This document shows, in pieces, positions 1,400-34,340 of a stretch of 38,336 nucleotides of DNA. The notes under the pieces were generated by a model. It saw only the letters and a program-made list of their open reading frames with translations. It did not search any database and was not told the DNA's origin. The stretch's first letter is position 1. Every line of letters starts with the position of its first letter. A program made the position numbers and the translations under genes. The stretch is from a virus: positions 1-38,336 of the IMG/VR virus record IMGVR_UViG_3300040856_004192; one strand, given 5' to 3'.

Positions 1400-2599
1400 T
1401 TAGCCTGTAAATGTATTGTTATAATTGCTTGCTGATATATAATCTCTATATCTTGTATCATTCCTTGCCCACGTATCACCGTTGCCTTGCATAATTTCAA
1501 TATACCTGTCTATAGTACGGTGTGTCCAATCTGAGATTTTACCAGAGTTAATATGTTTATATTCTAACAGTTTTTTTAGTTTTTGTAAAGCATCTTCTAA
1601 GCTCCATGGTACATATAATCTTGTATGATCGTGTGCAAAGATTTCAGGAAAACTTCTGTATGCAGGAAATAGTACGTTAGCACCTAATGCATCTGCTTCA
1701 CTTACAGTATTGCTTGTCCAGTCTTGTAAAGCACAATTAAACAATACTCTGCTATCATTTAATAGTTCATAGTATTCGTTTTTCTTTAAGTTTTCATAAA
1801 TTTTCAATTTACCTTTGGCTTCCATTTCTCTCGCACGAATGATATACTTTTCATTATTGCTCCTTAAAGGACCTCCTTGTAGGATAGCAAATTCTACGTC
1901 TTTATGATTATGAGTTTTAAAATATTTTTCAATTAAATCCATAAAAAAGTCTGGTTGCTTTTCTTGATCAAATCTAGCAGCAAAAGCAACTCTATATGTT
2001 CTTTTATTAAAATCTTTAATTGATTCAACCCTTGATTTAACTTCTTCTTTATCAAATGCAAGTCCGCTGACGTTATAGATTGGAGCACGCCAATTAGCAA
2101 TTTTCATATGTGCTACCATTTCCTCATTACTTGCAAGTACACCAGTAACAAATTCATTCACCATTTCTTCATACAAACTCATCCATTTGCTCATATTCCA
2201 TACGTGAACAAAATCGTCAGGATCTACTGCTTGTGCCAAGCATCTTACCCATACCTTAGGACGTTGTTTAGCTGGAATTTGATTCATAATATACGGAAGG
2301 CTTTCGATACCTGGTTGGAACATATCTTCAAAAAATATTACATCCTCTCCGGTAACTTCTCCGTTTCGCATCATTTGTACAAGATTCATCATTTGCGACA
2401 TAGCAAAATATGATCTACCATGTGCATCGAGTACTTGCCCTACCTGTATGCTTTTAGTGTTGTCAATAGTTGTTCCTGGAACATTTACCCAGTCTATATT
2501 ATTCCTAGCAAATGCTCGACGTGACCAATCAGTTAGTTGCAGTGTATATCTTCCTTCGTAAGGTTCTAAACCCATATAGAAAAGTTTTCTAAAACTCAT
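1400..2599 (-). CDS. GT-B glycosyltransferase (GT4-like, 399 aa)
   Basis: This is a probable nucleotide-sugar-dependent glycosyltransferase of the GT-B fold. The C-terminal half shows the usual donor-domain landmarks: a strand and loop RVAFAARFDQEKQP (203-216), a second strand FAILQGGP (237-244), and the Glu-containing segment SNTVSEADALGANVLFP (296-312) that in GT4 enzymes follows the nucleotide-binding region. The N-terminal half is the acceptor domain and is not diagnostic. There is no membrane segment. ATG at 2597-2599 has AAAGGAT upstream and sits 8 bases after the TGT/DpdA-like gene. In T4-like phages, glycosyltransferases often act on modified DNA bases. With its neighbours this one could glycosylate a deazaguanine, but a polysaccharide or protein acceptor cannot be excluded. 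Confidence 0.75.
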   Translation of the reverse strand: MSFRKLFYMGLEPYEGRYTLQLTDWSRRAFARNNIDWVNVPGTTIDNTKSIQVGQVLDAHGRSYFAMSQMMNLVQMMRNGEVTGEDVIFFEDMFQPGIESLPYIMNQIPAKQRPKVWVRCLAQAVDPDDFVHVWNMSKWMSLYEEMVNEFVTGVLASNEEMVAHMKIANWRAPIYNVSGLAFDKEEVKSRVESIKDFNKRTYRVAFAARFDQEKQPDFFMDLIEKYFKTHNHKDVEFAILQGGPLRSNNEKYIIRAREMEAKGKLKIYENLKKNEYYELLNDSRVLFNCALQDWTSNTVSEADALGANVLFPAYRSFPEIFAHDHTRLYVPWSLEDALQKLKKLLEYKHINSGKISDWTHRTIDRYIEIMQGNGDTWARNDTRYRDYISASNYNNTFTG

Positions 2600-2607
2600 A
2601 ATATCCT

Positions 2608-4110
2608 TTATTCAAAAAATTCATCATACTTAGCTTCCGCATTAATTGTTTTTTTACCAACTTTTAGTCTTGTTCCAATAATATGTGTCCACAAACTATT
2701 AGCTTGTGTTTTAGTACCATATTTGTTTATCGTTGCTAAACTTTTCTGTCTATCCTTATGAGAAAATATTTCGTCTACTATATCTCGGAAAACATCTCTT
2801 CTTGTAGGAGTTTCATAAACCATCATGTTAGGATATAATCCTTCGTCATATAATTTATTACTCCTTTGTGTGCTAGTTATATGCATCCAAACATTATGTG
2901 CCATTTGCAGTGCATAGCTAAAACTATCCCAGCTTGTTTTACCTTCCTTTCCTATTTTGTTTAAATCTCCAGGTTTGTATATGCATATATCATTTATTCT
3001 ACAAGCATCAGTTATAGGTGAGTCTTCAAAAGCAGGAAAAGGAATTTTACCACGTTTAGGATCATTAAAATGAGATTCTGTTAAAAACACATCGCTTAAT
3101 TTCCTAGTATCGGTTGCATATTTTTTATCATCTATACCGGGAGCCATCATGTAACTCCATTTATCATTGTGATCAATACGGATATTGTAATAGATTTGAC
3201 CGTTTGCAGTTGCCAAAAATGGACTTGCACAATCATATGTCATCATGAAATTTGGATTATGGTATTTCCTAATTGCACGTTGTATGTCGGTGAGCAATAT
3301 AGCCCATTCTAGTTTACTTGTTCCTAAGAAATGCATAACATCATGTAAGCCTGGCTCAAGCAGTTTGTCATGTATCATATGTACAAGTCTTTCTAAAATT
3401 AAATGTACATCGCACATATTCTGTCCGCCCATTGCCCAGCCATTGAAATGATTGTCTGGATATTTTTTTGGATCACAATAATCTTTAAATTCTTGATACC
3501 AATCTTCTGCATTTGTATGATTACTACCTTGTAAAACATTTAAAACTTTAAAATTTCCTTGTCTGTTTTTTAAGTAGTATTCTGCATTAATGTGTGTTGC
3601 TTTTACTGCATCGTTGTATGATCTTATATTAGTAGCATCTGCAGCATCTTTGTCTTGATATGTCCATGTAGGAATATCTAGCATCATACCATAATCCATA
3701 TATGCTTCCATCCATTTTACAACTAGTTCTCTTTTTTTGGTTGCTAGTGGACAGGTTGAACTAGTCCAATCTCCTTTCCAAAGGCCTTTTGCAACTTGGA
3801 ATCCTCCGCTATCTCCTAACAGCCAAGAAGATTCTCTATCTCTATTCCGCACCATGTCTTCTTTTTCTACAAACTTTGTTGTATCTAAATCTGCGTGTCC
3901 TGCTGAATATAACGCCCATTTGTAGTTAAAAGATGCTTGTTTAGGATTTAAGAAGTTTAAACCTTCCATGGAACCAATTCCTTTTGGAATTCGGTTAGGA
4001 TCGACATAGTCTCCAAATCTCTGTTTTCCTATAAATGTTGCATAGAATCCACTGATACTAGGCAAGAATACTGAATAATCATTTTGTTCTTTTGTTAAGT
4101 CTTTTATCAT
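2608..4110 (-). CDS. dpdA: TGT/DpdA-like transglycosylase (500 aa)
   Basis: This resembles the tRNA-guanine transglycosylase superfamily, whose phage branch (DpdA) swaps guanine in DNA for 7-deazaguanine. Family landmarks appear in order: GDSGGFQ (99-105, with the catalytic-type Asp100), VLQGSN (192-197; family IVQGG), WAMGGQ (225-230; family AIGG), HFLGTS (260-265; family YLMGVG), TYDCASPFLAT (291-301; family FDCVxPTR, so Asp293 would be the nucleophile). Cys370, Cys376 and His405 (in MAHN, family IHN) are placed like the zinc ligands. At 500 residues it is longer than bacterial Tgt, as phage DpdA proteins often are. ATG at 4108-4110 follows the clamp stop by 2 bases. DNA as substrate is inferred from phage context. 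A tRNA substrate remains possible. Confidence 0.75.
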   Translation of the reverse strand: MIKDLTKEQNDYSVFLPSISGFYATFIGKQRFGDYVDPNRIPKGIGSMEGLNFLNPKQASFNYKWALYSAGHADLDTTKFVEKEDMVRNRDRESSWLLGDSGGFQVAKGLWKGDWTSSTCPLATKKRELVVKWMEAYMDYGMMLDIPTWTYQDKDAADATNIRSYNDAVKATHINAEYYLKNRQGNFKVLNVLQGSNHTNAEDWYQEFKDYCDPKKYPDNHFNGWAMGGQNMCDVHLILERLVHMIHDKLLEPGLHDVMHFLGTSKLEWAILLTDIQRAIRKYHNPNFMMTYDCASPFLATANGQIYYNIRIDHNDKWSYMMAPGIDDKKYATDTRKLSDVFLTESHFNDPKRGKIPFPAFEDSPITDACRINDICIYKPGDLNKIGKEGKTSWDSFSYALQMAHNVWMHITSTQRSNKLYDEGLYPNMMVYETPTRRDVFRDIVDEIFSHKDRQKSLATINKYGTKTQANSLWTHIIGTRLKVGKKTINAEAKYDEFFE

Positions 4111-4112
4111 TA

Positions 4113-4844
4113 TTATTTGCTCTGTGCAGGCAAGATATAGTCATATCTTGCTAGCCCGCTATCAACAGAAATTTTCATAATTCCTTGATTAGAAATGCTT
4201 ATTGTTTGATTTCCTGATAGACTTAGGATACTTTGTATTTGATGTAGCGGGTATACCCTAGGAGTTGTCAGAGTGCCTGTAACATTATGTTTGAAAACAA
4301 ATTTACCAGCATGATTGTTATCGTCGCCGATTAATACAATTAAATTGTTTCCTTCTGTTTGAAAAGTAAAATTTGTTTCATCTGCGTGAGAAGTAGCCAT
4401 CAGTTTCATTCTTGTTATACTAGCAACCGGTGGTTCAAACTCTACATCCCATGTAGCTCCTTTGAATTTTACATTTTTAACTTGCTGTTCAATAATATCT
4501 TTATTGACAAATCTAAAATCATTTTGAAAATCACCTAAAACATTTTCAAAATGTATATGTGCAGGGTAATCCTCTCCGTTTTTTGTTTTTTTAACAACTT
4601 CAATTGTTGCATCGGTTTGATATTCGGGATTTTTAAGATGTAAACTAAGTACACTTAAATTAGATAATCCGAATATACCTTCAAATTCGGAAATTCTACT
4701 ATGTGTTTCTGCATTGAAAATAACACTTTTGTCTTCTGCCAAAGCAGCCATACTAGTTGTTGTAGTATCAGTAGCTACTTTAATTGTTGGCAAAAAGCCA
4801 AGGGAATGGGTATGAGAAATAATGTCTTGTAAAATATCTTTCAT
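4113..4844 (-). CDS. 45: DNA polymerase sliding clamp, gp45-like (243 aa)
   Basis: This is a probable processivity clamp, a trimeric ring loaded by gp44 that tethers gp43. The length (243; T4 gp45 is 228) fits. So do the N-domain segment EFEGIFGLSNLSVLSLHL (53-70), matching the T4 stretch AIYDLNGFLGILSL, and a C-domain of alternating strands ending in a PCNA/gp45-like final strand (RYDYILPA, 233-240). ATG at 4842-4844 has AAAGGC upstream. It sits 7 bases after the 1133-residue protein, which contains three colinear blocks related to this one. The sequence is divergent, and the call rests on fold-level landmarks plus the gp43 and gp44 genes present in the window. Confidence 0.75.
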   Translation of the reverse strand: MKDILQDIISHTHSLGFLPTIKVATDTTTTSMAALAEDKSVIFNAETHSRISEFEGIFGLSNLSVLSLHLKNPEYQTDATIEVVKKTKNGEDYPAHIHFENVLGDFQNDFRFVNKDIIEQQVKNVKFKGATWDVEFEPPVASITRMKLMATSHADETNFTFQTEGNNLIVLIGDDNNHAGKFVFKHNVTGTLTTPRVYPLHQIQSILSLSGNQTISISNQGIMKISVDSGLARYDYILPAQSK

Positions 4845-4851
4845 TGTGCCT

Positions 4852-7800
4852 TTATTGTTTTAGGGTTCCGTTGAATATATAGTTGTATATACCATTTGGG
4901 CTTCTAACAGTAATCATCATGTGGCCTTCATCGGATATACGTATCACTTTATCGCCTTGTAATTGTAAAATTCTTAATACTTGATGAGTTGGATATATCC
5001 AACGCTTGTCTAAATATGCAACAGGAGTTAAATATCCTTCTCGATCTGTATCAAATATTTTAACTTCATTATTAGTGGATGTCAAGTCTAAATTTACTTT
5101 TATTCTATCAATTGTTGTTTGATCTACTTCAAATGTGTAAACAAATTTATTGTTTAAATCAGTTAAAGGTAGAGGTCTTTTTATGTCAAATGCTCGTCGT
5201 AAATCTTGATCTTGATATGTAGGATTTAATGGACTGGTATCAGAAGATGCAGGCGGTAAAATCGAAATTGTACCTTGTTTTGTTAAATCGGTTATCGAGT
5301 GATAATAATGAGTTATATTTTTTGTGATAGTCCATTGAATTGTTGATGTTCCATTTCCTGCAGACCCGTGTGCTTGGAATTTTCCATATTTATTTACAAA
5401 TGTTTGTATCCAAAAAGGATCTGTATTTAATGTTGGTTGGTCAATATTAAATTGAATTTTATCTCCTATATAAAAAACAAGATTTCTATACTCCTCCTCA
5501 GTAAAAGTACCATTTCTATCTTCTCCACTAACTGCAAATATATCAATAATTTCTTCTATTGGTACGTAATTAGGGTCAAGTAAATCTTCCTCAGTTGGCG
5601 GAATAACTATGGTTTTTGTAGTACTAATAATATCTATAATGTAGTCAGGTGACCAGATCGGAGATGGAGGTAACAAACTCCATTTATAAATTTCTTCATT
5701 TTCGAAATATTGTGTCCAAAATGAAGGTTCTGCTGGAAATGGTAAATTTACATTATTGAAATTATGTTCGTATGGACTTGCATTAGTTATTACTGATAAA
5801 TCAGTCGAGTGTAAAGTAATCCTATCATATAATTCAGGTTGCTCGTTATAAAGAACATACGCAGGTACATTTTCTTGTTGTGCTATTTTAGGCTCTCCAA
5901 TGTAGCTTGAAAAAACATAGCCATTACCAGTATTGTGTTTTATAAAAAATTTTGTAAAAACATCAGTTAATTCAACTTCTGGTCCGTCTGGTACAGTTGT
6001 AATTTTCATACGATTCTTGTTTACAATGTCTTTTATGTAGAAGGTATCATCTGTATTTAGACCTGCAGTGACTATTGCAGTTGCATCTTGATATACAGAA
6101 AATTTAACAGGCATATTTGTTCTAAACCATCTTGTGTCGTTAATTTCTATTTCATTCACTTTATGATAAATTTCAAATTGGAAATTACTGTAAGGTACGG
6201 GTCTAACCGGACCGTCTATAGTTTCTGTTATTGTAAATTCTGTTCTTGCTACATTTATAATAATGGTAAAATAAAAATTACTATATGGTAGTTCTTTAAC
6301 AGGCCCTCCAAGTGTCTCTGAGATTGTTATAAAACCGTTGACAAATACATTTTTTATATAATATATCCTGTTTTCATCTAATTCGGCTTCTTCTAAAGCT
6401 GTTACCGAATCTGGCATATTTTTAAACATAACTTCCATATCTTCATATAACCATCCATTTTTATCATTTATTGACAACACATTTTCAAAATCTATACCCA
6501 TTACTTGTAAAGGTATCTCTCCTTCGATTAAATTTTCTATTTCTTTTACGTAGTAGATTGTATCTGCATCGAGTTCTGCTTGTAATAATGCATTAGTTGA
6601 GTCTTCAGGATTTCTAAATTGAATAGGTAAGTTAGGTTTTAAATATTTCCTAAGCTCTCTGTTGTTAGATTCTTGTGGAATAAAAGGAAGAAACTCAACC
6701 ATTTGGTATATATTCCTTTCAATAGTTAAGAAAAATTGGAAATTACAAAAAGGTATAGTTTTCCTTTGACCTCCTAGCGTTTCGCTAAATGTAAATTCAG
6801 TATCGCTTAGTATTTCTTTAATAAAATAATTCTTAGTAGGATCTAAACCAGCTTGGAAACATGCGTCAGCAGAGTCAGGATGATTTGAAAATTTAATAGT
6901 ATCGCCAATTTCAAAGCTGCATTCTAAGTCTAATTGTACTTCTATGATATGATTTTCTTCTGCAAGGAATGGACCAATGTAATAATTATTAAAAGGAATT
7001 TGTCTATAAATTATACCATTATATTCAGCAATTACATCTAAGGCTGTGATATATTCGTCTATTATTTTTGGTATATATGTGCCAGTAATGTTTTGTTCCA
7101 CAACATACACACCAAATCTATATTCAGGTTCTCCAAATTCAAATATCAAGTTTGAAGCAGGTACCAATGGATTGGGATTAGTAGTATATAACTCATAATA
7201 AATGTATTCTGGATATGTGCGTGACATAAAATTAAAGCGAGAGGACTGCTCTTCGGTTACATCAAAACTAAAATTCCATAGTGTTCCTGTGTGATATACC
7301 ATAGGATGTAAATTAGGAAATTCAGATGCAGTATTAAATTTGTATTCGTCACGGAATGTTCCATCGCTATTATAAAAATTTAAATTGACTGATACATATT
7401 CATTTGATTCTATTTCATTTATTACAACAATGCTTGTATCATTTGGATATTCTTGGAAGTTATCTAGTATATGGAAGGGCTTCCATAATTCATTCATGCC
7501 AAATTCTTTTTTAAATTCTACAATCTTTTCATCTATTTGAGCTTCTAACATTATGACTTCATCTTCAGATACGCCTTCTATAAATGTATGATCATTATAC
7601 ATATCAAAATTTGTATTTAATGCTGTATTAAAATGTATAAAATTAGAAAAATGATCGTTTACCATATTAAGGAAAAATTGATTAGAGCTTATTCTAATTA
7701 AGTTGTCTGGAAGTATATCTTTTATAAAATATTTTGTTTCTAAGTTCAGCGGACTGGATTGTACAGCAGATTCGTTATTAGGATTATTTTCAAATACAAC

Positions 7801-8253
7801 ACGCATACCATGATCTAACCAGCTTTGATCTAATACTTTAATATAGCTTCTGTCATGTATTATTGTAAAATCAAAATGAGCAAATGGAAGATTAATTATA
7901 TCACCTGGCAGGTTTGATTTGCAAATGTTGAATCGCAAACAGTTGTTTACTTGTTTTATATTTTTTGCATAATAATAGCAATTAGGATCAATTTCGGCTT
8001 GTTCAAGTGCTAGGGTAGAACCGTCGGGTGTTTCTGCAAATCTTACCTTAATTCCTTCTGCTAACCATGGAGTGAGTTGAGGAGTTGTTTCTAATTGATT
8101 TGTATCTGGAATAATTTTTATTATTTTACCATATTGATCAGGAATAAATTCTAAAACTGTAGTTTTTACATGGTAAAGTTTTAAGAATGTATATAATGTC
8201 GGATCGTATGTATAATCTAAAATTTCTTTTAGTATTAATCTGCTAATATGCAT
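4852..8253 (-). CDS. Giant sliding-clamp-related chimera with tail-type repeats (1133 aa)
   Basis: Three parts align by eye with the neighbouring clamp, in order: residues 8-32 (KEILDYTY... against KDILQDII...), 222-392 against clamp 31-191 (EFKKEFGMNEL / EFEGIFGLSNL; NLIFEFGEPEYRFG / NLIVLIGDDNNHAG; NITGT / NVTGT), and 1084-1127 against clamp 195-240 (IYPTHQVLRILQLQG / VYPLHQIQSILSLSG). Between them lie inserts of about 190 and 690 residues. These hold at least six diverged repeats of the form MxVxFxN...A.LD..xYYIKxI...FTxSETxGG...PxSNFxF (start near 65, 146, 448, 540, 603, 712), a style common in phage tail and baseplate proteins. A late-type promoter lies 50 bases upstream. I infer a virion role or an expanded clamp paralogue. 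No known family covers the whole. Confidence 0.8.
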   Translation of the reverse strand: MHISRLILKEILDYTYDPTLYTFLKLYHVKTTVLEFIPDQYGKIIKIIPDTNQLETTPQLTPWLAEGIKVRFAETPDGSTLALEQAEIDPNCYYYAKNIKQVNNCLRFNICKSNLPGDIINLPFAHFDFTIIHDRSYIKVLDQSWLDHGMRVVFENNPNNESAVQSSPLNLETKYFIKDILPDNLIRISSNQFFLNMVNDHFSNFIHFNTALNTNFDMYNDHTFIEGVSEDEVIMLEAQIDEKIVEFKKEFGMNELWKPFHILDNFQEYPNDTSIVVINEIESNEYVSVNLNFYNSDGTFRDEYKFNTASEFPNLHPMVYHTGTLWNFSFDVTEEQSSRFNFMSRTYPEYIYYELYTTNPNPLVPASNLIFEFGEPEYRFGVYVVEQNITGTYIPKIIDEYITALDVIAEYNGIIYRQIPFNNYYIGPFLAEENHIIEVQLDLECSFEIGDTIKFSNHPDSADACFQAGLDPTKNYFIKEILSDTEFTFSETLGGQRKTIPFCNFQFFLTIERNIYQMVEFLPFIPQESNNRELRKYLKPNLPIQFRNPEDSTNALLQAELDADTIYYVKEIENLIEGEIPLQVMGIDFENVLSINDKNGWLYEDMEVMFKNMPDSVTALEEAELDENRIYYIKNVFVNGFITISETLGGPVKELPYSNFYFTIIINVARTEFTITETIDGPVRPVPYSNFQFEIYHKVNEIEINDTRWFRTNMPVKFSVYQDATAIVTAGLNTDDTFYIKDIVNKNRMKITTVPDGPEVELTDVFTKFFIKHNTGNGYVFSSYIGEPKIAQQENVPAYVLYNEQPELYDRITLHSTDLSVITNASPYEHNFNNVNLPFPAEPSFWTQYFENEEIYKWSLLPPSPIWSPDYIIDIISTTKTIVIPPTEEDLLDPNYVPIEEIIDIFAVSGEDRNGTFTEEEYRNLVFYIGDKIQFNIDQPTLNTDPFWIQTFVNKYGKFQAHGSAGNGTSTIQWTITKNITHYYHSITDLTKQGTISILPPASSDTSPLNPTYQDQDLRRAFDIKRPLPLTDLNNKFVYTFEVDQTTIDRIKVNLDLTSTNNEVKIFDTDREGYLTPVAYLDKRWIYPTHQVLRILQLQGDKVIRISDEGHMMITVRSPNGIYNYIFNGTLKQ

Positions 8254-8302
8254 TTTTTCTCCATTTCTTATTATTAGTATTTAACTAAAAAAAGATATAG
8301 AG

Positions 8303-8309
8303 TATTTAT
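8303..8309 (-). promoter_or_regulatory. T4-late-type promoter before the clamp-related chimera
   Basis: The minus strand reads CATAAATACTC. ATAAATACT matches most of the T4 late consensus TATAAATACTATT. It lies 50 bases before the start codon at 8253 and overlaps the end of the upstream gene. The 52-base gap holds no gene. The same motif recurs before other late-type genes in the window. Confidence 0.55.
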
Positions 8310-8863
8310 GCTGCATCGTCAAATGTTTTAGGCAGGTTGTTAATAATTATTTCAATCTTGTTGTCATCGTCTTTTAGTTTTATAGATATGTTTTGATGTT
8401 CTTCTAAGATCGCTTTGTGTTCTACTCCGTCTTGTTTAATAGTAATTTCTTTAGCTTGAGACATTTTGTTAAGTTCAATACCACCGAATATTGCATTATG
8501 TAAATCCATATAACCACAATCCATGCCAACACCATACATGCTCATATCAAATCCAAATACTTGATATAGGACGTATCTATAGCTTCCGTTTTTCTCATAG
8601 TCACCTTTGTGTATACGTTTACATACAGCATAAAAAGCTTTTTCTCTTTCTTCTTCAGACAGCTTGTCCCACCATTCGTTATTGTCAGCTTCGTATTGTT
8701 CAGTAGCTTCTTTGTATGCTTTTTGTGCTGCTATAAATTCTGGAGAGTTAATACTATCTAATAGTCTTTTCTTTTTAAGTTCTACTGCATGTCCATTATA
8801 AGATTCTTCCCAGTTAGAGGCTATTTCTTTTAATTTTTCTGGAGTTTCTTCTTCAGTCATCAT
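8306..8863 (-). CDS. Conserved-type hypothetical protein (185 aa)
   Basis: A soluble, acidic protein directly downstream of gp43 (the gp43 stop ends at 8864, and this ATG begins at 8863). The N-terminal part is helical and charged (EETPEKLKEIASNWEES). The central part carries SEEEREKAFYAVCKRIH, then YRYVLYQVFGFDMSMYG and GMDCGYMDLHNAIFGG, which look like a conserved core. A hydrophilic beta-rich end follows. The core resembles a protein of unknown function seen in marine T4-like phages. There are no catalytic motifs I can name. The likely frame includes MM at the start, and the second Met is an alternative. Confidence 0.7.
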   Translation of the reverse strand: MMTEEETPEKLKEIASNWEESYNGHAVELKKKRLLDSINSPEFIAAQKAYKEATEQYEADNNEWWDKLSEEEREKAFYAVCKRIHKGDYEKNGSYRYVLYQVFGFDMSMYGVGMDCGYMDLHNAIFGGIELNKMSQAKEITIKQDGVEHKAILEEHQNISIKLKDDDNKIEIIINNLPKTFDDAA

Positions 8864-11530
8864 TTATTCCCATTCAAAAAAATTATTAAAGGTATTTTCT
8901 TGTTTAGTTTCTGCTAAATCATAATTTAGAACACCTATTAAATTGTCTAATTTATTGTCTATTATAACTTCTTCCATACTTGCATCATCAAAGGGTAAAT
9001 CTTTAAACCATTGTGGTAATCTTAGTTCGTCGGTAGGATATGCTACACTTGTATAATTCATTGGATTTGGTCTTAATTTGCAAACAATTACTTTCATACC
9101 ATCTACAATTTCCATTGCATAACGATCATTATTTAATTTCCGTAGCGTATTCCAGTTTAAGCTTGCTCTTACATGTCCAGGTAAATTTGCTTTTCCTTTT
9201 TCTACGAGTCTTTGAAAATGTCCGATTTTGTTAGCTCGTTTAGGAGATCCTTTTTCCCAACCTGGTCTATCTTTAAATTCTTTTCTAAAGTCAGTGATTC
9301 TTTGTATAATTTCTTTTTCGGACTTTTCTTGCAGAACCATCATTAGAACTTCGCTTAGGAATTCTTGCATAAACACTGGAGTATCGGATCTACGCAAATC
9401 TAAACCCATTGCTTTTACTTTACCTGGCTTACCGTCTATATCTTTACGGTCACCTTCTAAGTCATATACTAAAGCAGCATATCTTTTTTTCGTAATATAT
9501 AATCCCGATTCGGCGATAATTTCTCTACCTGCTGCAATTACTATAGATCTGCTAGCTGGACAATGGAATGCAGTTAACATAAAGTCTTTAAAGGTAGTAT
9601 TAGCTTCCTCCGCCACTTGATCATATAATGTAATTACTGCTTCTTTTGACCAAGGAATGCTTCCATTGTCTATTTCTGTTTTTAAAACAGGATATGCACT
9701 AAAGTAAACTGAATCTGTGTCGCCGTATATCACAGCCTTGCCAACGTGATTGTATTCACCTGTAATAACTTTATTAACTTCTGCACTCATATGTTTTACA
9801 ATCTGCCTTCCAGTTAGCGTAGTTGATTGTCCTATACGCTTATCAAAAAACCTACATCCTGGATTTAAAATTGCACCGTATAATGAATTTAGATTAATTT
9901 TTTTTACAAGTTGCCGTTTGTCCCAAAAAGCAATTTCTAGCGGATTACCTGCTTCGATAGCTTTCTTTTTCATTGCTTGTAATTCTTTACGCTCTGCATA
10001 CCAGCGTTTTAATAGTCCTGGAATAACTCCTTCAAATTCAGTTGTGAATATTGTACCATTAGCACTTAACATCCAAGGCATTCCGCTATCAAATACTAGC
10101 TTGTAAATTTCGGCACCGCTTAGTGTTTCAGATCTTCCATCCTCAAAATCTAAAGTTAGTACAACATCTTTACGTTGATCGAGCACTGCTTGATATTCTT
10201 CTGTACCAAAGCGACCTTCCCACGCACCCGCAAATGATTTCTTTTCCAAGCTTATAGCTTCGTTGATAATATTATCTGTCATTTCAGGACGAAGTTGTCC
10301 TACAATTGTTTCAGGAGCCATGTTTAACGCACGAATTACGCTAGGATATAGACTGTTTAAGTCCATACTTCCGATCCATTTATGCACACCTTTTTTTGGA
10401 AATGCAACATAAGCACCTGCAGCCGCTGTATTTTCGTCATCTCTCTTAGGGCGATTAGGTACACGCATGCCTCTTTCGTGTGCTTCGTTAATAATCGCTT
10501 GTTCTGTAACTGCTACAGCACCCATTGTGGTTTGTAGCAATACAGTATTTGCATGGGCAAGTTCGTTGCTTAGATCAATAAATTTTAGTTTACGATCTAA
10601 TTTATCTAGCAGTGCAACGTCTTGTCTGTTGTATTCAATAAATGTTTTAAAATCGTTGTTGTATAACTGGTCAAGTGTACCTTCGTAAACAGTTTTACGC
10701 TCACCTACTTCCATTTCGCCAATTGCATCTAGTCTATAGCTATGTCGTTCTTCATATGTGTACTTTCTATATAGTTCAAGACTGTCTAAATGCACACGGC
10801 CAACAAGATCAAACGTTTCAGCTTTTTTGCCAAACTTTTCATATTCTCTTTTCTTAGGCAATTGCTTCCACAAGCAAAAGCGTCTAGTATCATCCTTGCT
10901 TAGTATCCTGCTTACACGATTAACTGTATACGGAATATCATAACCTTCTGAGTTCCAACCACTTAATACGTCAGCATCTTCTATAAGATCAAGGAATGTT
11001 TCGAGCATTTTTCCTTCATCAGTAAACAATAAAACTTCTTCTCCCCATTCTGAAACTTCATGCTTTGCTTGTTCTAATGAAAGTGTTTTAGGAGGAAGGG
11101 CTAGTGTAATAAGAACATCTAACCATTGTAAATTTACAGTAATTGCTGTAATTGGCATAAAAGGATCTGCCGGATCAGCAAATCCTCTATCAGGATCAAA
11201 ATCTGTTTCAATATCAAAAAACGCAATATTTAACTTAGGAGCGTCCTGATTAAGATAATTTTCACTTAGGCATTGGAAAATAGGGTTTACATCACTTTCA
11301 AATAAAGTTTTGTCTCTATTGATTGCTATTTCTTTACGAAAATCTTTTGTGTTTTTACAGATAATTTTTGAGAGGGGATCACCGTAGATACTTAGATGTT
11401 TTCCCTTAGGATCTTTGTAATAAAAAGTATATTTTATAGGATGTTCGACAAATCTTCTCTTACCGTCATGTCTTTCTACAACACGAATAATGTCTTCATT
11501 CCTATCAAAAATTGCGTCTATGTAACTCAT
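8864..11530 (-). CDS. 43: DNA polymerase, family B, gp43-like (888 aa)
   Basis: Replicative polymerase with 3'-5' proofreading. Exo I is FFDIETDF (104-111; Asp106, Glu108), Exo II GWNSEGYDIPY (191-201), and Exo III YNRQDVALLD (300-309). Palm motif A is SMDLNSLYPS (388-397), motif B KKINLNSLYGA (543-553), and motif C IYGDTDSVYF (601-610). All catalytic acidic residues are present. The length is close to T4 gp43 (898). The C-terminus NNFFEWE is a plausible clamp-binding tail, like the aromatic tail of T4 gp43. The 63-base leader before ATG 11530 has a weak AGAAAG ribosome site and no strong hairpin that I can see. Confidence 0.97.
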   Translation of the reverse strand: MSYIDAIFDRNEDIIRVVERHDGKRRFVEHPIKYTFYYKDPKGKHLSIYGDPLSKIICKNTKDFRKEIAINRDKTLFESDVNPIFQCLSENYLNQDAPKLNIAFFDIETDFDPDRGFADPADPFMPITAITVNLQWLDVLITLALPPKTLSLEQAKHEVSEWGEEVLLFTDEGKMLETFLDLIEDADVLSGWNSEGYDIPYTVNRVSRILSKDDTRRFCLWKQLPKKREYEKFGKKAETFDLVGRVHLDSLELYRKYTYEERHSYRLDAIGEMEVGERKTVYEGTLDQLYNNDFKTFIEYNRQDVALLDKLDRKLKFIDLSNELAHANTVLLQTTMGAVAVTEQAIINEAHERGMRVPNRPKRDDENTAAAGAYVAFPKKGVHKWIGSMDLNSLYPSVIRALNMAPETIVGQLRPEMTDNIINEAISLEKKSFAGAWEGRFGTEEYQAVLDQRKDVVLTLDFEDGRSETLSGAEIYKLVFDSGMPWMLSANGTIFTTEFEGVIPGLLKRWYAERKELQAMKKKAIEAGNPLEIAFWDKRQLVKKINLNSLYGAILNPGCRFFDKRIGQSTTLTGRQIVKHMSAEVNKVITGEYNHVGKAVIYGDTDSVYFSAYPVLKTEIDNGSIPWSKEAVITLYDQVAEEANTTFKDFMLTAFHCPASRSIVIAAGREIIAESGLYITKKRYAALVYDLEGDRKDIDGKPGKVKAMGLDLRRSDTPVFMQEFLSEVLMMVLQEKSEKEIIQRITDFRKEFKDRPGWEKGSPKRANKIGHFQRLVEKGKANLPGHVRASLNWNTLRKLNNDRYAMEIVDGMKVIVCKLRPNPMNYTSVAYPTDELRLPQWFKDLPFDDASMEEVIIDNKLDNLIGVLNYDLAETKQENTFNNFFEWE

Positions 11531-16826: not shown

Positions 16827-17540
16827 TTATTTATCTAAATCTTTGCGATAAACAAGCTCGTCAGTACGTCCTAGACTATTTCCTGCCATTAAAGTTACAA
16901 GTGTTAAGACAGATTTATCACGTACATACATTATACATCCCTCTAGTCCATAACCTTTTTCCATATATTCTAATGTGTTTGCAGATACTTTTACTTTATC
17001 ACTGTTGTTCTTACACCATTTACCAAAACTAGGAATACCTTTGTTACTGTTAAATTTAACCTTCCATTTGTATTCCGGAGGCTTGTCAACAAGGATAATA
17101 TGACCATTCGCTAACAATGCCTCGACATATTTAGGATCTGGTTGATGGAATTCTTGAGCACATTCGATTCTAGTAGCCATTTCTAATAACCATGCTTTAT
17201 CATTTGCGTAAAACTTACCAGTATATGGCCAATCTATCCTAATCTTAAATTCTCTACTAACTAATTTTTCAGTAAGACATTTATAAATTGTTTGTGCATC
17301 TCTAAAATGACGATATTTAATTTTGCCGTTGCTAATATCGTCACGTATATGATGCGGTATATCTGAGGTTAATCTATGCTTATCTTCAAAGTAAAGGCGA
17401 AGCCCGTCGAGTATTCTCATTGCCCAAGCAGGACCACTTGATTGGCAGTTACGAAAAATTACCAGTAAAGGATTTTGGCATTTCAGCGCATAAAGATATT
17501 CATTATAAAATAACTTATTTGTCTCAATGTGCCGCAACAT
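16827..17540 (-). CDS. Hypothetical protein (237 aa)
   Basis: A soluble alpha/beta protein beginning MLRHIETNKLFYNEYLYALK. It is basic and rich in Trp, Tyr and Lys, with Cys spread through it. The C-terminal part (VSANTLEYMEKGYGLEGCIMYVRD, within which GYGLEGCIMYVRD is a likely strand) resembles a conserved unknown of marine T4-like phages. The start overlaps the end of clpA by 17 bases, which suggests coupling. No known motif found. Confidence 0.65.
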   Translation of the reverse strand: MLRHIETNKLFYNEYLYALKCQNPLLVIFRNCQSSGPAWAMRILDGLRLYFEDKHRLTSDIPHHIRDDISNGKIKYRHFRDAQTIYKCLTEKLVSREFKIRIDWPYTGKFYANDKAWLLEMATRIECAQEFHQPDPKYVEALLANGHIILVDKPPEYKWKVKFNSNKGIPSFGKWCKNNSDKVKVSANTLEYMEKGYGLEGCIMYVRDKSVLTLVTLMAGNSLGRTDELVYRKDLDK

Positions 17541-19761
17541 GCTCCTCCTCTACTGTAATATCAAACTCGTTATCTTTAATAACAATCTTACATTTCCCGC
17601 CATTTTTTAAACTACCGAACAACATTGCTTTACTAAGAGGTTTTTTAATCTCTCTATCAATAATTCTTTGCAACGGTCTTGCACCCATCTTGCTGTCATA
17701 TCCTTTCTCTACGAGCATGTCAAGTGCTTCGTCATCGATTGATATTGTGATATTTTTGTGCTGTACCTGTTGTCTAAGTGCATACAAAAATTTGCCTACA
17801 ATTTTCATCATAGTTTCTTTACTTAACTTACCAAATGTGACAACACCGTCGAGCCTATTCCTAAATTCTGGAGCAAAAAAGTTTTTGAGTTCTGTATCTG
17901 AATACGTCTGATCAAACTCGTTACCAAAGCCTATAGTGTTTTTCTCTGCTTCTTCTGCACCAAGATTGGTTGTAAGGATTAGAATACAGTTCCTTGCATC
18001 CGCTTCTTTACCGTGCGATCCTGTAATCCTTCCATTATCCATAATTTGTAGTAAAATCTGCGAAACATCTGGATGAGCTTTTTCAATTTCATCTAGTAAT
18101 AAAACGCAATTAGGATGTTCTTCTAGTTTTGTAATAAGAAGGCCGTTACTCTCCTCGTAGCCTACATAGCCTGGAGGAGACCCGATTAGTTTTGCAACAC
18201 TGTGCTTTTCTTGATACTCGCTCATGTCAAATCTTACAAGTTTTACACCTAAATGATTAGCGAGCTGTTTCGCAGTTTCTGTTTTACCAGTTCCTGTAGG
18301 ACCCATAAACACAAAACTACCAATCGGTTTAGTTTCGTCTTTTAGCCCAGCCTGTGCAATAAGGATTTTATCGACTAAATCTTCAATAGCTTTATCTTGC
18401 CCGTAAACACTGTCTTTGATATTCTTTTCTAGATGTACAAGATTTTCAGTTTCTCTTTCTGCTACTTGTTCAGCTGGTAGATTAATCATTTTTGCAAGTT
18501 CGAATTGAATTGATTTATCATCAATCTTTCTTTCAACACCATCTTCTATAAGGTTAAATCTACTACAGGCAACGTCAATTAAATCTATAGCTTTATCTGG
18601 TAATTTCTTATCAGTTTGATACTTTACACTTAATTTGATTGCTGCTTTGATAGCTTCTTCTGTAATTTCTGTCTTGTGAAATTCTTCATAATATTTTTTA
18701 ATACCGTTAAGGATATCAACAGTAATCTCAGGTGACGGTTCGTCTACTGTGACACGCTGGAATCTACGCATTAATGCTCGGTCTTTTTCAAAATATTTCC
18801 TATATTCTTCCCACGTAGTGCTAGCAACAACTTTAATATTGCCTTTGCTTAGTGCAGGCTTGAGCATATTAGCAAGATCATTTGAGTCTTTACCGCCTCC
18901 TGCGCCAGCACCGTTTATCATGTGTGCTTCGTCAATAAAAAGTATAGTTTTTCCTTTGCTTTTTAAACCTTGTAAGATTAATTTTAATCTTTCTTCAAAG
19001 TCTCCTCGATATTTTGTGCCTGCTAACAAGCCTCCTATATCAAGATTATATACTTGATATTCGCTTAAAAATTCAGGTACTTCTTTATGGACAATTTTAT
19101 ATGCTAGTCCTTCTATAATAGCCGTTTTCCCTACTCCAGGATCACCTACTAGAATAATATTGTTTTTTTGTCTGCGACCTAAAGATAATGCAACAGATTC
19201 TATAATGTCTTCTCTACCAATTACTGGATCGATTTTGTTATTTTCTGCTTCCTTATTTAGATTGACAGTAAATGATTTAAGTGCTCTTTGTGCTTGACTG
19301 TTGTTTTCTTCTTCTTCAATGTCATCGTGTATTTCGTTGTTTAGATATTCACTAAACTTATCTTTATCTAAGCCGCCTTTTTCTAGATAATAACTCCCTA
19401 TTGATTTCTTTTCAGCTAAAACACTTAAAACAACATCCGATAAGTCAATCTGTGACCTACCGCTAAAAAGGGTTTGTGTAAATGCACGGTTTAAAACTCT
19501 TTCAACAGTTTGAGTCTTTTTTGGTTTTTGTGGAGGTTCTTCAGAAATAATGTCTTGGCAATTATTTTTTAAATGATGTTCTAAATTACTCTTGATATAT
19601 TCAACATCACCTCCAAATGTTTTTACAATATTACACAAAGAATCACTACAAAACAATGCAAAAAGCAAGTGTTCTACTGTAACATAATCATGATTTAATC
19701 TTTTTGCATCATTTATTGATTTTTCAAATACTAGTTTTAATTCTTCACTTGGCTCAACCAT
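17524..19761 (-). CDS. clpA: ClpA-type AAA+ unfoldase with ClpP-binding loop (745 aa)
   Basis: A complete two-ring Hsp100 unfoldase. The Clp N-domain (10-140) is followed by AAA-1: Walker A GDPGVGKT (206-213), Walker B ILFIDEAH (273-280), and a likely Arg finger around MRRFQR. AAA-2 has Walker A GPTGTGKT (487-494), Walker B LLLDEIEKAH (554-563), FRNRLDGV (633-640) and sensor-2 GARPLQR (693-699). There is no ClpB middle domain. Residues 610-612 (IGF) lie in the loop where ClpA carries IGL for docking on ClpP. No clpP is in the window, so it would use the host ClpP. A sigma70-type promoter and AAAGGAT precede ATG 19761. About the length of E. coli ClpA (758). Confidence 0.95.
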   Translation of the reverse strand: MVEPSEELKLVFEKSINDAKRLNHDYVTVEHLLFALFCSDSLCNIVKTFGGDVEYIKSNLEHHLKNNCQDIISEEPPQKPKKTQTVERVLNRAFTQTLFSGRSQIDLSDVVLSVLAEKKSIGSYYLEKGGLDKDKFSEYLNNEIHDDIEEEENNSQAQRALKSFTVNLNKEAENNKIDPVIGREDIIESVALSLGRRQKNNIILVGDPGVGKTAIIEGLAYKIVHKEVPEFLSEYQVYNLDIGGLLAGTKYRGDFEERLKLILQGLKSKGKTILFIDEAHMINGAGAGGGKDSNDLANMLKPALSKGNIKVVASTTWEEYRKYFEKDRALMRRFQRVTVDEPSPEITVDILNGIKKYYEEFHKTEITEEAIKAAIKLSVKYQTDKKLPDKAIDLIDVACSRFNLIEDGVERKIDDKSIQFELAKMINLPAEQVAERETENLVHLEKNIKDSVYGQDKAIEDLVDKILIAQAGLKDETKPIGSFVFMGPTGTGKTETAKQLANHLGVKLVRFDMSEYQEKHSVAKLIGSPPGYVGYEESNGLLITKLEEHPNCVLLLDEIEKAHPDVSQILLQIMDNGRITGSHGKEADARNCILILTTNLGAEEAEKNTIGFGNEFDQTYSDTELKNFFAPEFRNRLDGVVTFGKLSKETMMKIVGKFLYALRQQVQHKNITISIDDEALDMLVEKGYDSKMGARPLQRIIDREIKKPLSKAMLFGSLKNGGKCKIVIKDNEFDITVEEEHVAAH

Positions 19762-19789: not shown

Positions 19790-19818
19790 ATTGTATATGT
19801 AAATGTATCAGTTGTCAA
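19790..19818 (-). promoter_or_regulatory. Sigma70-type promoter for clpA
   Basis: On the minus strand TTGACA (19813-19818) and TACAAT (19790-19795) are 17 bases apart. The -35 box is formed from the last codons of the dnaJ-like gene (GTT GAC AAC TGA). The start codon of clpA is about 30 bases after the -10. This suggests early expression of clpA by host RNA polymerase. Confidence 0.65.
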
Positions 19819-20650
19819 CCATTGATTTAAGTTGATTGATTTTCGATGCATCAAGTGACGGTATCTTACAAGTAATTTCTAAGTATAAATTACCACGTTT
19901 TTGTGTATTAAAATCTGGTAAACCGTGCCCGCTCACAGACAGTGTAGTATTTGGTTGAGTTGCTTTTGGAATTGTAAGCGATATTTCCTTTCCTTCAGGT
20001 GTTTTAATCTTTTTTGTAGCGCCACATATACAGTCAAAAACATCAACATCAATTTTCATGTATAAATGATTTCGATCTCTTTTAACATTAGGAGCATCTG
20101 TTATCCTGATTTGTACAATCAAATTTCCTCTAGGTGCGTTTGGGATAGAATTGTCACCATACCCTTGAAATCTAATGTTGTCACCGTCACGTATTCCGGG
20201 AGGAATCCTTACATCTATTATTTCGGTTTTTCCACTTGGTAATCTGTATGTGATCGAATCTGTTTTTCCAGTAAATAGATATTGAAAATCTAAATTAATT
20301 GCAATCTTAATATCTTTGTTCCTGACTCGTTGATTAGCAAATCCTTGGCCAAAATGATGACCGAACCCAAAATGTCTTAGTATATCATCAAAATCTGCTC
20401 CAGCTCCTGATGTAAAATGAAAGCCGCCGCTGTTCATGTGTGCTTGCTGTGGATCAGTTGTTCCAAATTGATCATACATCTGTTTTTGTTGTGGATCGGA
20501 AAGGGCTTGATAAGCTTCGTTTATTTGTTTAAACTTTTCAGGATCACCACCCTTGTCAGGATGGTTTTTCATTGCTTGTCTTTTATAAGCGGTTTTAAGT
20601 TCGTCTGCCGAGGCTGACCGCTTAACCCCGAGTAAATCGTAGTAGTCCAT
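19808..20650 (-). CDS. DnaJ-like co-chaperone, type B (280 aa)
   Basis: The J-domain (1-65) carries the HPD motif (His30-Pro31-Asp32), followed by a Gly/Phe linker (GGFHFTSGAGADF) and two C-terminal substrate-binding barrels (about 113-275). The zinc-finger repeats of DnaJ are missing, as in CbpA-type proteins. It should stimulate the ATPase of the host DnaK and hand substrates to it. It lies directly upstream of clpA and downstream of the SNase gene. ATG 20650 follows a 12-base gap. The pairing with ClpA suggests a phage-encoded protein-remodelling set. Confidence 0.92.
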   Translation of the reverse strand: MDYYDLLGVKRSASADELKTAYKRQAMKNHPDKGGDPEKFKQINEAYQALSDPQQKQMYDQFGTTDPQQAHMNSGGFHFTSGAGADFDDILRHFGFGHHFGQGFANQRVRNKDIKIAINLDFQYLFTGKTDSITYRLPSGKTEIIDVRIPPGIRDGDNIRFQGYGDNSIPNAPRGNLIVQIRITDAPNVKRDRNHLYMKIDVDVFDCICGATKKIKTPEGKEISLTIPKATQPNTTLSVSGHGLPDFNTQKRGNLYLEITCKIPSLDASKINQLKSMVDN

Positions 20651-27480: not shown

Positions 27481-27803
27481 GCTGTCACCTCAAAAAATTC
27501 ATCAAATAGATTATCTTTAAGATGGTACTTAGCATTAACTACCTCATATGAATCAACCTGCATTGCAAGTAACGTATGTTTTTTTGTTGGTTTGCCTTTA
27601 AACCAAAAAGTCATCATAGGATCATCTCTATCCTCATGCCAAGGATACCAGTTATAATCAACTAACGTAGTCTCGTCATCGGCAAATACTTTTTCAGATT
27701 CGCCAAACAGTTTTTCTACTCGGTCAATTGGATGTATTTCTTGGTGAAAATATGGAATTTTAATTGCAAATTCTTTTACTTTTAAATGGTGTTTTATTTT
27801 CAT
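27477..27803 (-). CDS. Hypothetical protein (108 aa)
   Basis: A small soluble protein with His and Trp clusters ([29 protein letters not shown]) and a C-terminal [16 protein letters not shown]. It overlaps gp44 and the ferredoxin gene by 4 bases each. In T4 the small clamp-loader subunit gp62 follows gp44, but this sequence is shorter than gp62 and I see no resemblance. Unknown. Confidence 0.7.
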
Positions 27804-28714
27804 AATCTACTCAATTTAATTAGTACGGCAGCAAGGTTAATTTCCGGGTCAACAACTAATGTGTGATCAACAAGGCCTTGTTTTATAATTAAAACAGCAG
27901 AATCTTGTTTTTCATCATCTCCAAATAGCTCTAAGTTTTCGTAAAGCCAGCGATAAATTCCTTCCATTTCCTCAGGACGGACTGTACCACATAAAAGTTT
28001 TCTAGCCTCTGCAATTTTACCTGCTTTGAAAAGATCCACCATCTCTAGTTTCCAATCTGCTTCGCCAGAGTCATTTTCGTGTGGAGCAAGTAAACTTTTG
28101 TCCTGTACATTCATTTGCACCATATTTATGCACTTGCGTAAATCTGGATAGGTAGCTTTGACGTATGTATCAAGGATATCAAGATCTGGTGTTACATTTT
28201 CTGCAATTAAAATTTCTGCTACTCTAGCCGTGAATTCTGTTTGATCTACCCGAGCAATATGGAATCCTTGACATCTACTATGGATAGCAGGAATGATTTT
28301 ATTATGATAATTACATGTTAATATAAATCTAGCAAACTCGTGATATTCTTCCATTACGCCCCGCAATGCAGCCTGTGCATTTGGTGACAAATAATCTGCT
28401 TCGTCTAACAATACAACTTTAAAATCGCCAAAAGGAATCATTTGGACAAAGTTTACAATTTTATCTCTAACATCGTCAACTGAATTAGTACGACTTGCAT
28501 TTATTTCTAAGATATCAAACTCATTAACATTTAGTTCATGCAGCAGTAATTTTGCTAAAGTTGTCTTGCCTATTCCTGCATTTCCACTAAAAAGCAAATG
28601 CGGGATACTTTGATCTTTAATCCATTGTTGTATTTGTTTTTTTTGTGCTTCATCTCTAAAAACATATCCGTCTACAGTCTTAGGTCTATATTTTTCTACC
28701 CAAAGTTCTTTCAT
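27800..28714 (-). CDS. 44: Clamp loader ATPase, gp44-like (304 aa)
   Basis: An AAA+ clamp loader (RFC small-subunit type) that opens gp45 and sets it on primer junctions. Walker A is FSGNAGIGKTTLA (42-54), Walker B VVLLDEADYLS (99-109), and the SRC motif with its Arg finger is IHSRCQGF. The start ELWVEKYRPKTVDGYV is the family N-terminus. Length is near T4 gp44 (319). It overlaps both neighbours by 4 bases. Confidence 0.95.
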   Translation of the reverse strand: MKELWVEKYRPKTVDGYVFRDEAQKKQIQQWIKDQSIPHLLFSGNAGIGKTTLAKLLLHELNVNEFDILEINASRTNSVDDVRDKIVNFVQMIPFGDFKVVLLDEADYLSPNAQAALRGVMEEYHEFARFILTCNYHNKIIPAIHSRCQGFHIARVDQTEFTARVAEILIAENVTPDLDILDTYVKATYPDLRKCINMVQMNVQDKSLLAPHENDSGEADWKLEMVDLFKAGKIAEARKLLCGTVRPEEMEGIYRWLYENLELFGDDEKQDSAVLIIKQGLVDHTLVVDPEINLAAVLIKLSRL

Positions 28715-34321: not shown

Positions 34322-34340
34322 ATGCAAGTTCCTTCAGCTG

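Follow-up and report, generated by a model that had tools for sequence, protein, structure and literature searches.

A phage gene next to the sliding clamp gene encodes a clamp paralogue with two large inserts and a late-type promoter element

A protein of 1133 residues encoded beside the sliding clamp gene of a phage is, by sequence comparison, a true paralogue of this clamp over two blocks, which are separated by a large insert and preceded by a second one. The gene comes from a viral sequence record that is 38,336 bases long and is called the window here; the corresponding loci of related phages were numbered L004 to L121. On the minus strand of the window the genes for the DNA polymerase, a 185-residue protein, the 1133-residue protein, the 243-residue clamp, a 500-residue protein and a glycosyltransferase follow each other in this order (Table 1). 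The paralogue is encoded in the replication cluster, outside the virion genes. Our preferred explanation, held with about equal measures of belief and doubt, is a reuse of the clamp fold as the scaffold of a late, probably virion-associated protein that would no longer be a DNA clamp. The main rival is a specialised late clamp subunit.

Table 1. Positions of the genes and sequence features discussed in the text; residue numbers are those of the 1133-residue protein unless stated otherwise.
Feature	Position in the window	Strand	Evidence
Clamp paralogue with inserts, 1133 residues	4852..8253	-	ORF; clamp HMM E=1.6e-33; full-length homologues in L004 and L005
PCNA-fold sliding clamp (predicted), 243 residues, phrog_12062	4113..4844	-	AF2 pLDDT 92; Foldseek to PCNAs
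185-residue protein on the left side of the empty site	8306..8863	-	87% identity in L083
Family B DNA polymerase, T4 gp43 type	8864..11530	-	phrog_262 E=3e-200
Clamp-loader ATPase	27800..28714	-	phrog_168 E=1e-75
Proposed clamp N-terminus, N-terminal 31 residues, unsupported	8161..8253	-	no better than shuffles; hhalign 3%
Repeat 1, residues 55-133, first insert	7855..8091	-	repeat HMM
Repeat 2, residues 135-210, first insert	7624..7851	-	repeat HMM
Clamp block, residues 222-392 (clamp 30-191)	7078..7590	-	BLASTP, HMM; pLDDT mostly 65-83
Repeat 3, residues 437-510, second insert	6724..6945	-	repeat HMM
Repeat 4, residues 527-597, second insert	6463..6675	-	repeat HMM
Repeat 5, residues 599-668, second insert	6250..6459	-	repeat HMM
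Partial repeat, residues 671-693, second insert	6175..6243	-	repeat HMM
Repeat 6, residues 701-775, second insert	5929..6153	-	repeat HMM
Domain common to cyanophage structural-cluster proteins, residues 905-999	5257..5541	-	phrog_27200 E=2.3e-5; domain HMM
Clamp block, residues 1080-1129 (clamp 192-240)	4867..5016	-	BLASTP, HMM; pLDDT 81-87
ATAAATAC element (CATAAATACTC), T4-late-type promoter-like	8302..8309	-	about 57 nt upstream of the start codon of the 1133-residue protein
Segment present in the window and absent in L083	4846..8294		homology stops at 8295 and resumes at 4845

The neighbouring clamp and its paralogue

The 243-residue protein belongs to PHROG 12062, which is annotated as of unknown function ("hypothetical protein" in most records). 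No Pfam match was obtained by sequence. Since a sequence-profile search of the PDB found none either, its identity as a clamp rests on predicted structure. An AF2 model computed from an alignment of 32 relatives reached a pLDDT of 92 and a pTM of 0.89, and Foldseek returned 424 PDB matches for this model at E<=0.001. The 50 of these matches that were listed are PCNA-family clamps throughout (yeast, human, archaeal, protist, ASFV and 9-1-1), with E values of about 1e-10 to 3e-9 and a probability of 1.00. By prediction, the protein is a PCNA-fold sliding clamp, as the original prediction had assumed.

Genes of this clamp family lie downstream of the polymerase gene in PA5oct, Phosso, Atu_ph07, GAP32, Munch, SCTP-2 and other phages. 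CBB, GAP32 and Munch carry PHROG 12062, located one gene downstream of the polymerase in the latter two. Published analyses of RaK2 and CBB list no homologue of the gp45 clamp (PMC3622015, PMC5259590). In Rak2-like and other jumbo phages, PHROG 12062 appears to represent the PCNA-fold sliding clamp. The gp45 Pfam family PF02916 was not detected in related contigs of up to 176 kb. The PA5oct ortholog is listed as detected by ESI-MS/MS, which has no bearing on the 1133-residue protein. The 500-residue protein encoded next to the clamp (2608-4110) has no match in Pfam or PHROG; nearly all relatives have it conserved at this place after the clamp, and proteins with 32-35% identity are present in PA5oct and Vibrio phage 2.275.O.

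BLASTP aligned clamp residues 30-191 with residues 223-392 of the 1133-residue protein (24% identity, E=8e-13) and, collinear with this match, clamp residues 197-238 with residues 1086-1127 (45% identity, E=2e-8). An HMM built from 63 clamp sequences matched the protein as a whole (E=1.6e-33) as well as its residues 220-392 (E=6e-22) and 1046-1129 (E=3e-13), the matches spanning clamp positions 27-191 and 163-240. In a profile-profile alignment with the clamp (hhalign) the two blocks were recovered at 97% and 95% probability, and clamps from about 80 other phage contigs (IMG/VR) independently matched the same two blocks. None of 1000 shuffled sequences reached the real score for the sub-profiles tested in either block. 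BLASTP, HMM, profile alignment and shuffles agree on two stretches, residues 220-392 and 1080-1129 (approximate limits), which correspond to the blocks 222-392 and 1084-1127 proposed from the sequence. A third proposed block, residues 8-32 aligned with clamp residues 2-26, was not recovered: the N-terminal sub-profile scored no better than shuffles, hhalign gave 2-3%, and MAFFT placed the clamp N-terminus elsewhere. The statement that nearly the whole clamp can be read off the protein holds from about clamp residue 27 onward and is unsupported for the N-terminal part. Homology across both clamp domains, by which membership in the PCNA superfamily was judged, is present, with clamp residues 1-26 unrecognised.

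Three further candidate matches were discarded. A clamp N-terminus at residues 177-196 (KDILPD) amounts to six or seven residues within a repeat and was set aside. Both hhalign and visual inspection had hinted at an overlapping further copy of the clamp, either after residue 392 or before residue 1080. Sub-profile shuffles support neither, since 495 of 1000 shuffles scored as well for residues 393-445 and 24 of 1000 for residues 1030-1085.

The clamp blocks keep most of the buried positions of the fold. In the clamp tree the branch of the 1133-residue protein is long (2.2 substitutions per site) and is placed below all marine-type clamps; long-branch attraction may account for this placement. 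The AF2 model of the full-length protein was poor (mean pLDDT 41) and contained no assembled clamp; the clamp blocks reached about 55-87, mostly at least 65, and the order of their strands and helices follows that of the clamp. When this model was submitted to Foldseek, PCNAs ranked on top, but at insignificant values (E>=0.007, TM about 0.18); clamps were part of the input alignment of the model, and this ordering is not independent evidence.

Inserts and charge of the clamp core

Two large inserts are present, as originally predicted: about 220 residues lie ahead of the clamp blocks and about 690 residues between them. Both contain a repeat of about 75 residues, for which a repeat HMM detected six copies and one fragment, two copies in the first insert and four and a half in the second. 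The repeats had been described as similar to those of tail fibres. This likeness was not borne out, as one repeat copy compared with 50,697 phage records gave only noise (E about 8-9); a search with the repeat HMM in samples of three related genomes, about 350 kb in all, was negative. The second insert contains in addition a separate domain at about residues 905-999. An HMM of this domain matched S-MbCM7_177 (28 bits) and PHM1_104 of P-HM1 (21 bits), both weak scores, and the genes for these two proteins adjoin tail-fibre, neck and structural genes. The idea of inserted virion modules is thus retained for this one domain, which is common to virion-cluster proteins at weak scores, and not for the repeats, which are without known relatives. 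S-MbCM7_177 and PHM1_104 are modular structural proteins of T4-like cyanophages that have this one domain in common with the 1133-residue protein; unlike the latter, they belong to clusters of virion genes, and they showed no clamp sequence. Elsewhere in the window, an 827-residue protein (31844-34327) contains a putative Ig domain (He_PIG) and has as its neighbours a 1042-residue structural protein and a baseplate connector of the gp9/gp10 type; this region is probably a tail-fibre cluster.

According to the order of the structural elements, the first insert would precede strand beta-C1 and the second would lie between beta-D2 and beta-E2. In PCNA, prominent loops are found on the back face, opposite the partner pocket (PMC7225939). 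Judging from PCNA topology and its antiparallel meander, both inserts would be located in loops on one, partner-free side.

The channels of sliding clamps are lined with net-positive helices (PMC2988020). We compared the charge of the core, taken as the part that corresponds to clamp residues 30-191. In all three versions of the 1133-residue protein (window, L004 and L005) this core contains 9 lysines and arginines and has a net charge of -19 to -24, compared with 14-22 such residues and a net charge of -1 to -11 in 34 clamps, among them jumbo-phage clamps with only 24-31% identity to that of the window. The presumed inner helices of the 1133-residue protein still carry one or two basic residues each. 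At conserved clamp positions, 2 of 11 basic residues are kept versus 51 of 68 hydrophobic ones (P=0.0005). Many of these basic positions are, however, lost in distant jumbo clamps as well, which weakens the loss of individual basic residues as proof of lost DNA binding; the comparison was therefore based on total charge. Taken together, it is likely that the 1133-residue protein has lost the ability to bind DNA.

The acidic core bears directly on the main rival, according to which the protein is a specialised clamp subunit. It would form mixed rings with the 243-residue clamp, comparable to archaeal heterotrimeric PCNA or 9-1-1, or a separate ring of its own on late-infection DNA, and its inserts would bring factors for late transcription, packaging or assembly to the replicating DNA. 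The gene adjoins the clamp gene and is close to the polymerase gene, a clamp loader is encoded in the window, and the strand and interface regions are kept in order. A late-type promoter would fit as well. The T4 clamp gp45 is a coactivator of late transcription and couples replication to it (PMC2988020). However, the clamp core is far more acidic than that of any true clamp compared, at least one insert domain is of the virion-cluster type, and the gene is confined to one clade whose relatives replicate without it. We consider this rival rather unlikely. That the protein bridges replication or late transcription to assembly, one of the roles originally suggested, is still conceivable.

Late-type promoter element, distribution and selection

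The motif CATAAATACTC / CATAAATAC is located at -57 of the gene in all three genomes that encode the 1133-residue protein (window, L004 and L005), and the empty site of L083 has no such promoter-like element. T4 late promoters are cited in PMC5259590 as using TATAAATA. This canonical form is not found in the window, where eight copies would be expected, and it is depleted about tenfold in about 80 related loci (13 versus 126). The commonest form in this phage group is (G/C)ATAAATAC. The motif ATAAATAC is depleted about fourfold in these loci, yet 18 of its 25 copies are followed by an ORF at a distance of 15-80 nt, compared with 10.7% for permuted 8-mers. In three long related contigs, two of which match the T4 gp23 capsid family, it ranks first among 168 permuted 8-mers for placement upstream of genes, with 18 of 32 copies within 20-60 nt of a start (permutation average 3.8%). 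There it precedes genes for baseplate wedge, tail fibre and virion structural proteins; in the group it is also found ahead of non-virion genes such as those for homing endonucleases and ferredoxin. ATAAATAC thus behaves as a late promoter element of the phage group. The late-type promoter claimed for the 1133-residue gene, a feature taken to indicate a virion protein, is accordingly present at the level of sequence: the element is conserved in all three genomes, and the motif is avoided overall yet placed upstream of genes, including virion genes. Its distance to the start codon, 57 nt, is beyond the usual 24-43 nt.

Full-length homologues of the 1133-residue protein were found only in L004 (94% identity) and L005 (86%), so that the gene is known from a small set of T4-like phages. 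GTDB genomes contained no relatives, and the other clamp loci compared (two partly overlapping sets of about 80) encode plain clamps of 242-279 residues without a second copy; a single clamp is encoded in each of two contigs, of 165 and 176 kb. The search for the same fusion in related phages therefore yielded two further contigs, and the remaining clamp loci lack it. An assembly or fusion artefact could be suspected for a gene present in three contigs only. However, it is a single uninterrupted frame, and the gene order recurs in contigs that stem from separate IMG/VR datasets and in which the adjoining genes are 85-100% identical; L004 and L005 refute this explanation, and we regard its probability as negligible.

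In L083, which has a polymerase 94% identical to that of the window, exactly the 1133-residue gene is missing and 33 nt separate the flanks. The clamp and the 500-residue protein of L083 are only 54-55% identical to those of the window, the glycosyltransferase is missing, and flanking genes are mostly 84-98% identical; the swapped stretch comprises positions 1400-4844 of the window and 8001-10279 of L083. Because the alleles are diverged or absent in L083 between closely similar flanks, the stretch from the 1133-residue gene to the glycosyltransferase gene looks as if it had been exchanged as one block. In L007 to L085 the interval between polymerase and clamp varies; in many of them it contains genes similar to NAD-dependent epimerases or sugar dehydrogenases, in others it is empty. 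The interval is a variable cargo slot. Genes for proteins of about 250 residues upstream of the clamp in relatives were considered as missing-link clamp copies and rejected, since they resemble sugar-nucleotide enzymes and have no clamp match.

The location in such a slot agrees with the possibility that the 1133-residue protein is cargo, or another late-acting protein without a link to virion or replication, which might for instance act in intracellular inhibition or surface modification. The slot genes of the relatives, encoding sugar-nucleotide epimerases or dehydrogenases, are however unrelated to clamps, whereas the 1133-residue gene is a paralogue of its neighbour and has a virion-type domain and a late-type element. 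We consider this explanation improbable.

Comparison of the window with L005 gave dN/dS values of 0.13 for the 1133-residue gene, 0.07 for the clamp gene and 0.03 for the polymerase gene. With a dS of about 0.6 and a dN/dS below 0.25 in all segments, the 1133-residue gene is under purifying selection; its reading frame is open over 1133-1134 codons in the three contigs and has a good start context. Because it is found in three separate contigs, has a dN/dS of 0.13 and is precisely missing from L083, the gene is neither an artefact nor a pseudogene. A functionless, decaying clamp duplicate that gained inserts would account for the long branch in the clamp tree and for the lost charge pattern. 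The open frame, the low dN/dS over the whole gene and in its segments, the start context and the conserved promoter element make such a duplicate highly improbable. Among the three options offered by the original prediction, a decayed copy reused as structure fares best, in that the acidic core indicates lost clamp chemistry; the low dN/dS does not support a loss of function.

The protein of L004 matches that of the window nearly perfectly except for residues 550-1000 (approximate limits), and at residues 851-950 (likewise approximate) it is almost identical to that of L005. Comparison of the three sequences indicates that recombination has replaced this latter region in L004, in the part of the protein with the virion-type domain. 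The exchanged patch resembles the exchange of exposed modules.

Possible role and relation to known clamps

The preferred reading, a clamp fold reused as scaffold, can be outlined as follows. The phage's PCNA-type clamp would long ago have given rise to a paralogue that was taken over as scaffold for a late-made protein. Its clamp part would provide a trimeric or otherwise oligomeric base. The repeats and the terminal domain would project from this base, in or on the particle, and form an appendage that is exposed and can be exchanged. The 1133-residue protein would no longer encircle DNA as a processivity factor, a task left to the intact 243-residue clamp. Several observations speak against this reading: the position in the replication cluster, the poor full-length AF2 model, repeats that lack known relatives, weak scores for the one virion-type domain, the basic residues left in the inner helices, the large distance of the promoter element from the start codon, the presence of the motif ahead of non-virion genes, and the unrecognisable clamp N-terminus. 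In a narrower version, which we put forward tentatively, the clamp fold has turned into a virion component, with a PCNA-like ring as the structural base for exchangeable surface modules.

With PCNA and T4 gp45 clamps, including phrog_12062, the 1133-residue protein shares two homologous blocks, the order of the structural elements and a gene position near polymerase and clamp. It differs from them in being five times longer, with two large inserts, an unrecognisable N-terminal segment, a far more acidic core and a late-type promoter, and ring formation or tethering to DNA would be hypothetical in its case. Specialised clamp paralogues are represented by Rad9-Rad1-Hus1 and Sulfolobus PCNA1/2/3, which are clamp-sized and loaded on DNA. 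The 1133-residue protein resembles them as a diverged clamp paralogue that exists beside a replicative clamp. We know of no specialised clamp paralogue with inserts that amount to about 900 residues and contain repeats and virion-type domains. Clamp folds are among the most conserved replication parts and, to our knowledge, always act as rings or processivity factors on DNA. If a virion component is indeed involved, it would be the first replication clamp recruited into a phage particle; a role as scaffold would illustrate the conversion of a replication ring into a structural component. Alternatively, the protein would be a clamp that brings assembly modules to DNA.

The window also encodes an adjoining pair of chaperones, a ClpA/B-type AAA+ ATPase (17524-19761) and a DnaJ protein with J and C-terminal domains (19808-20650).
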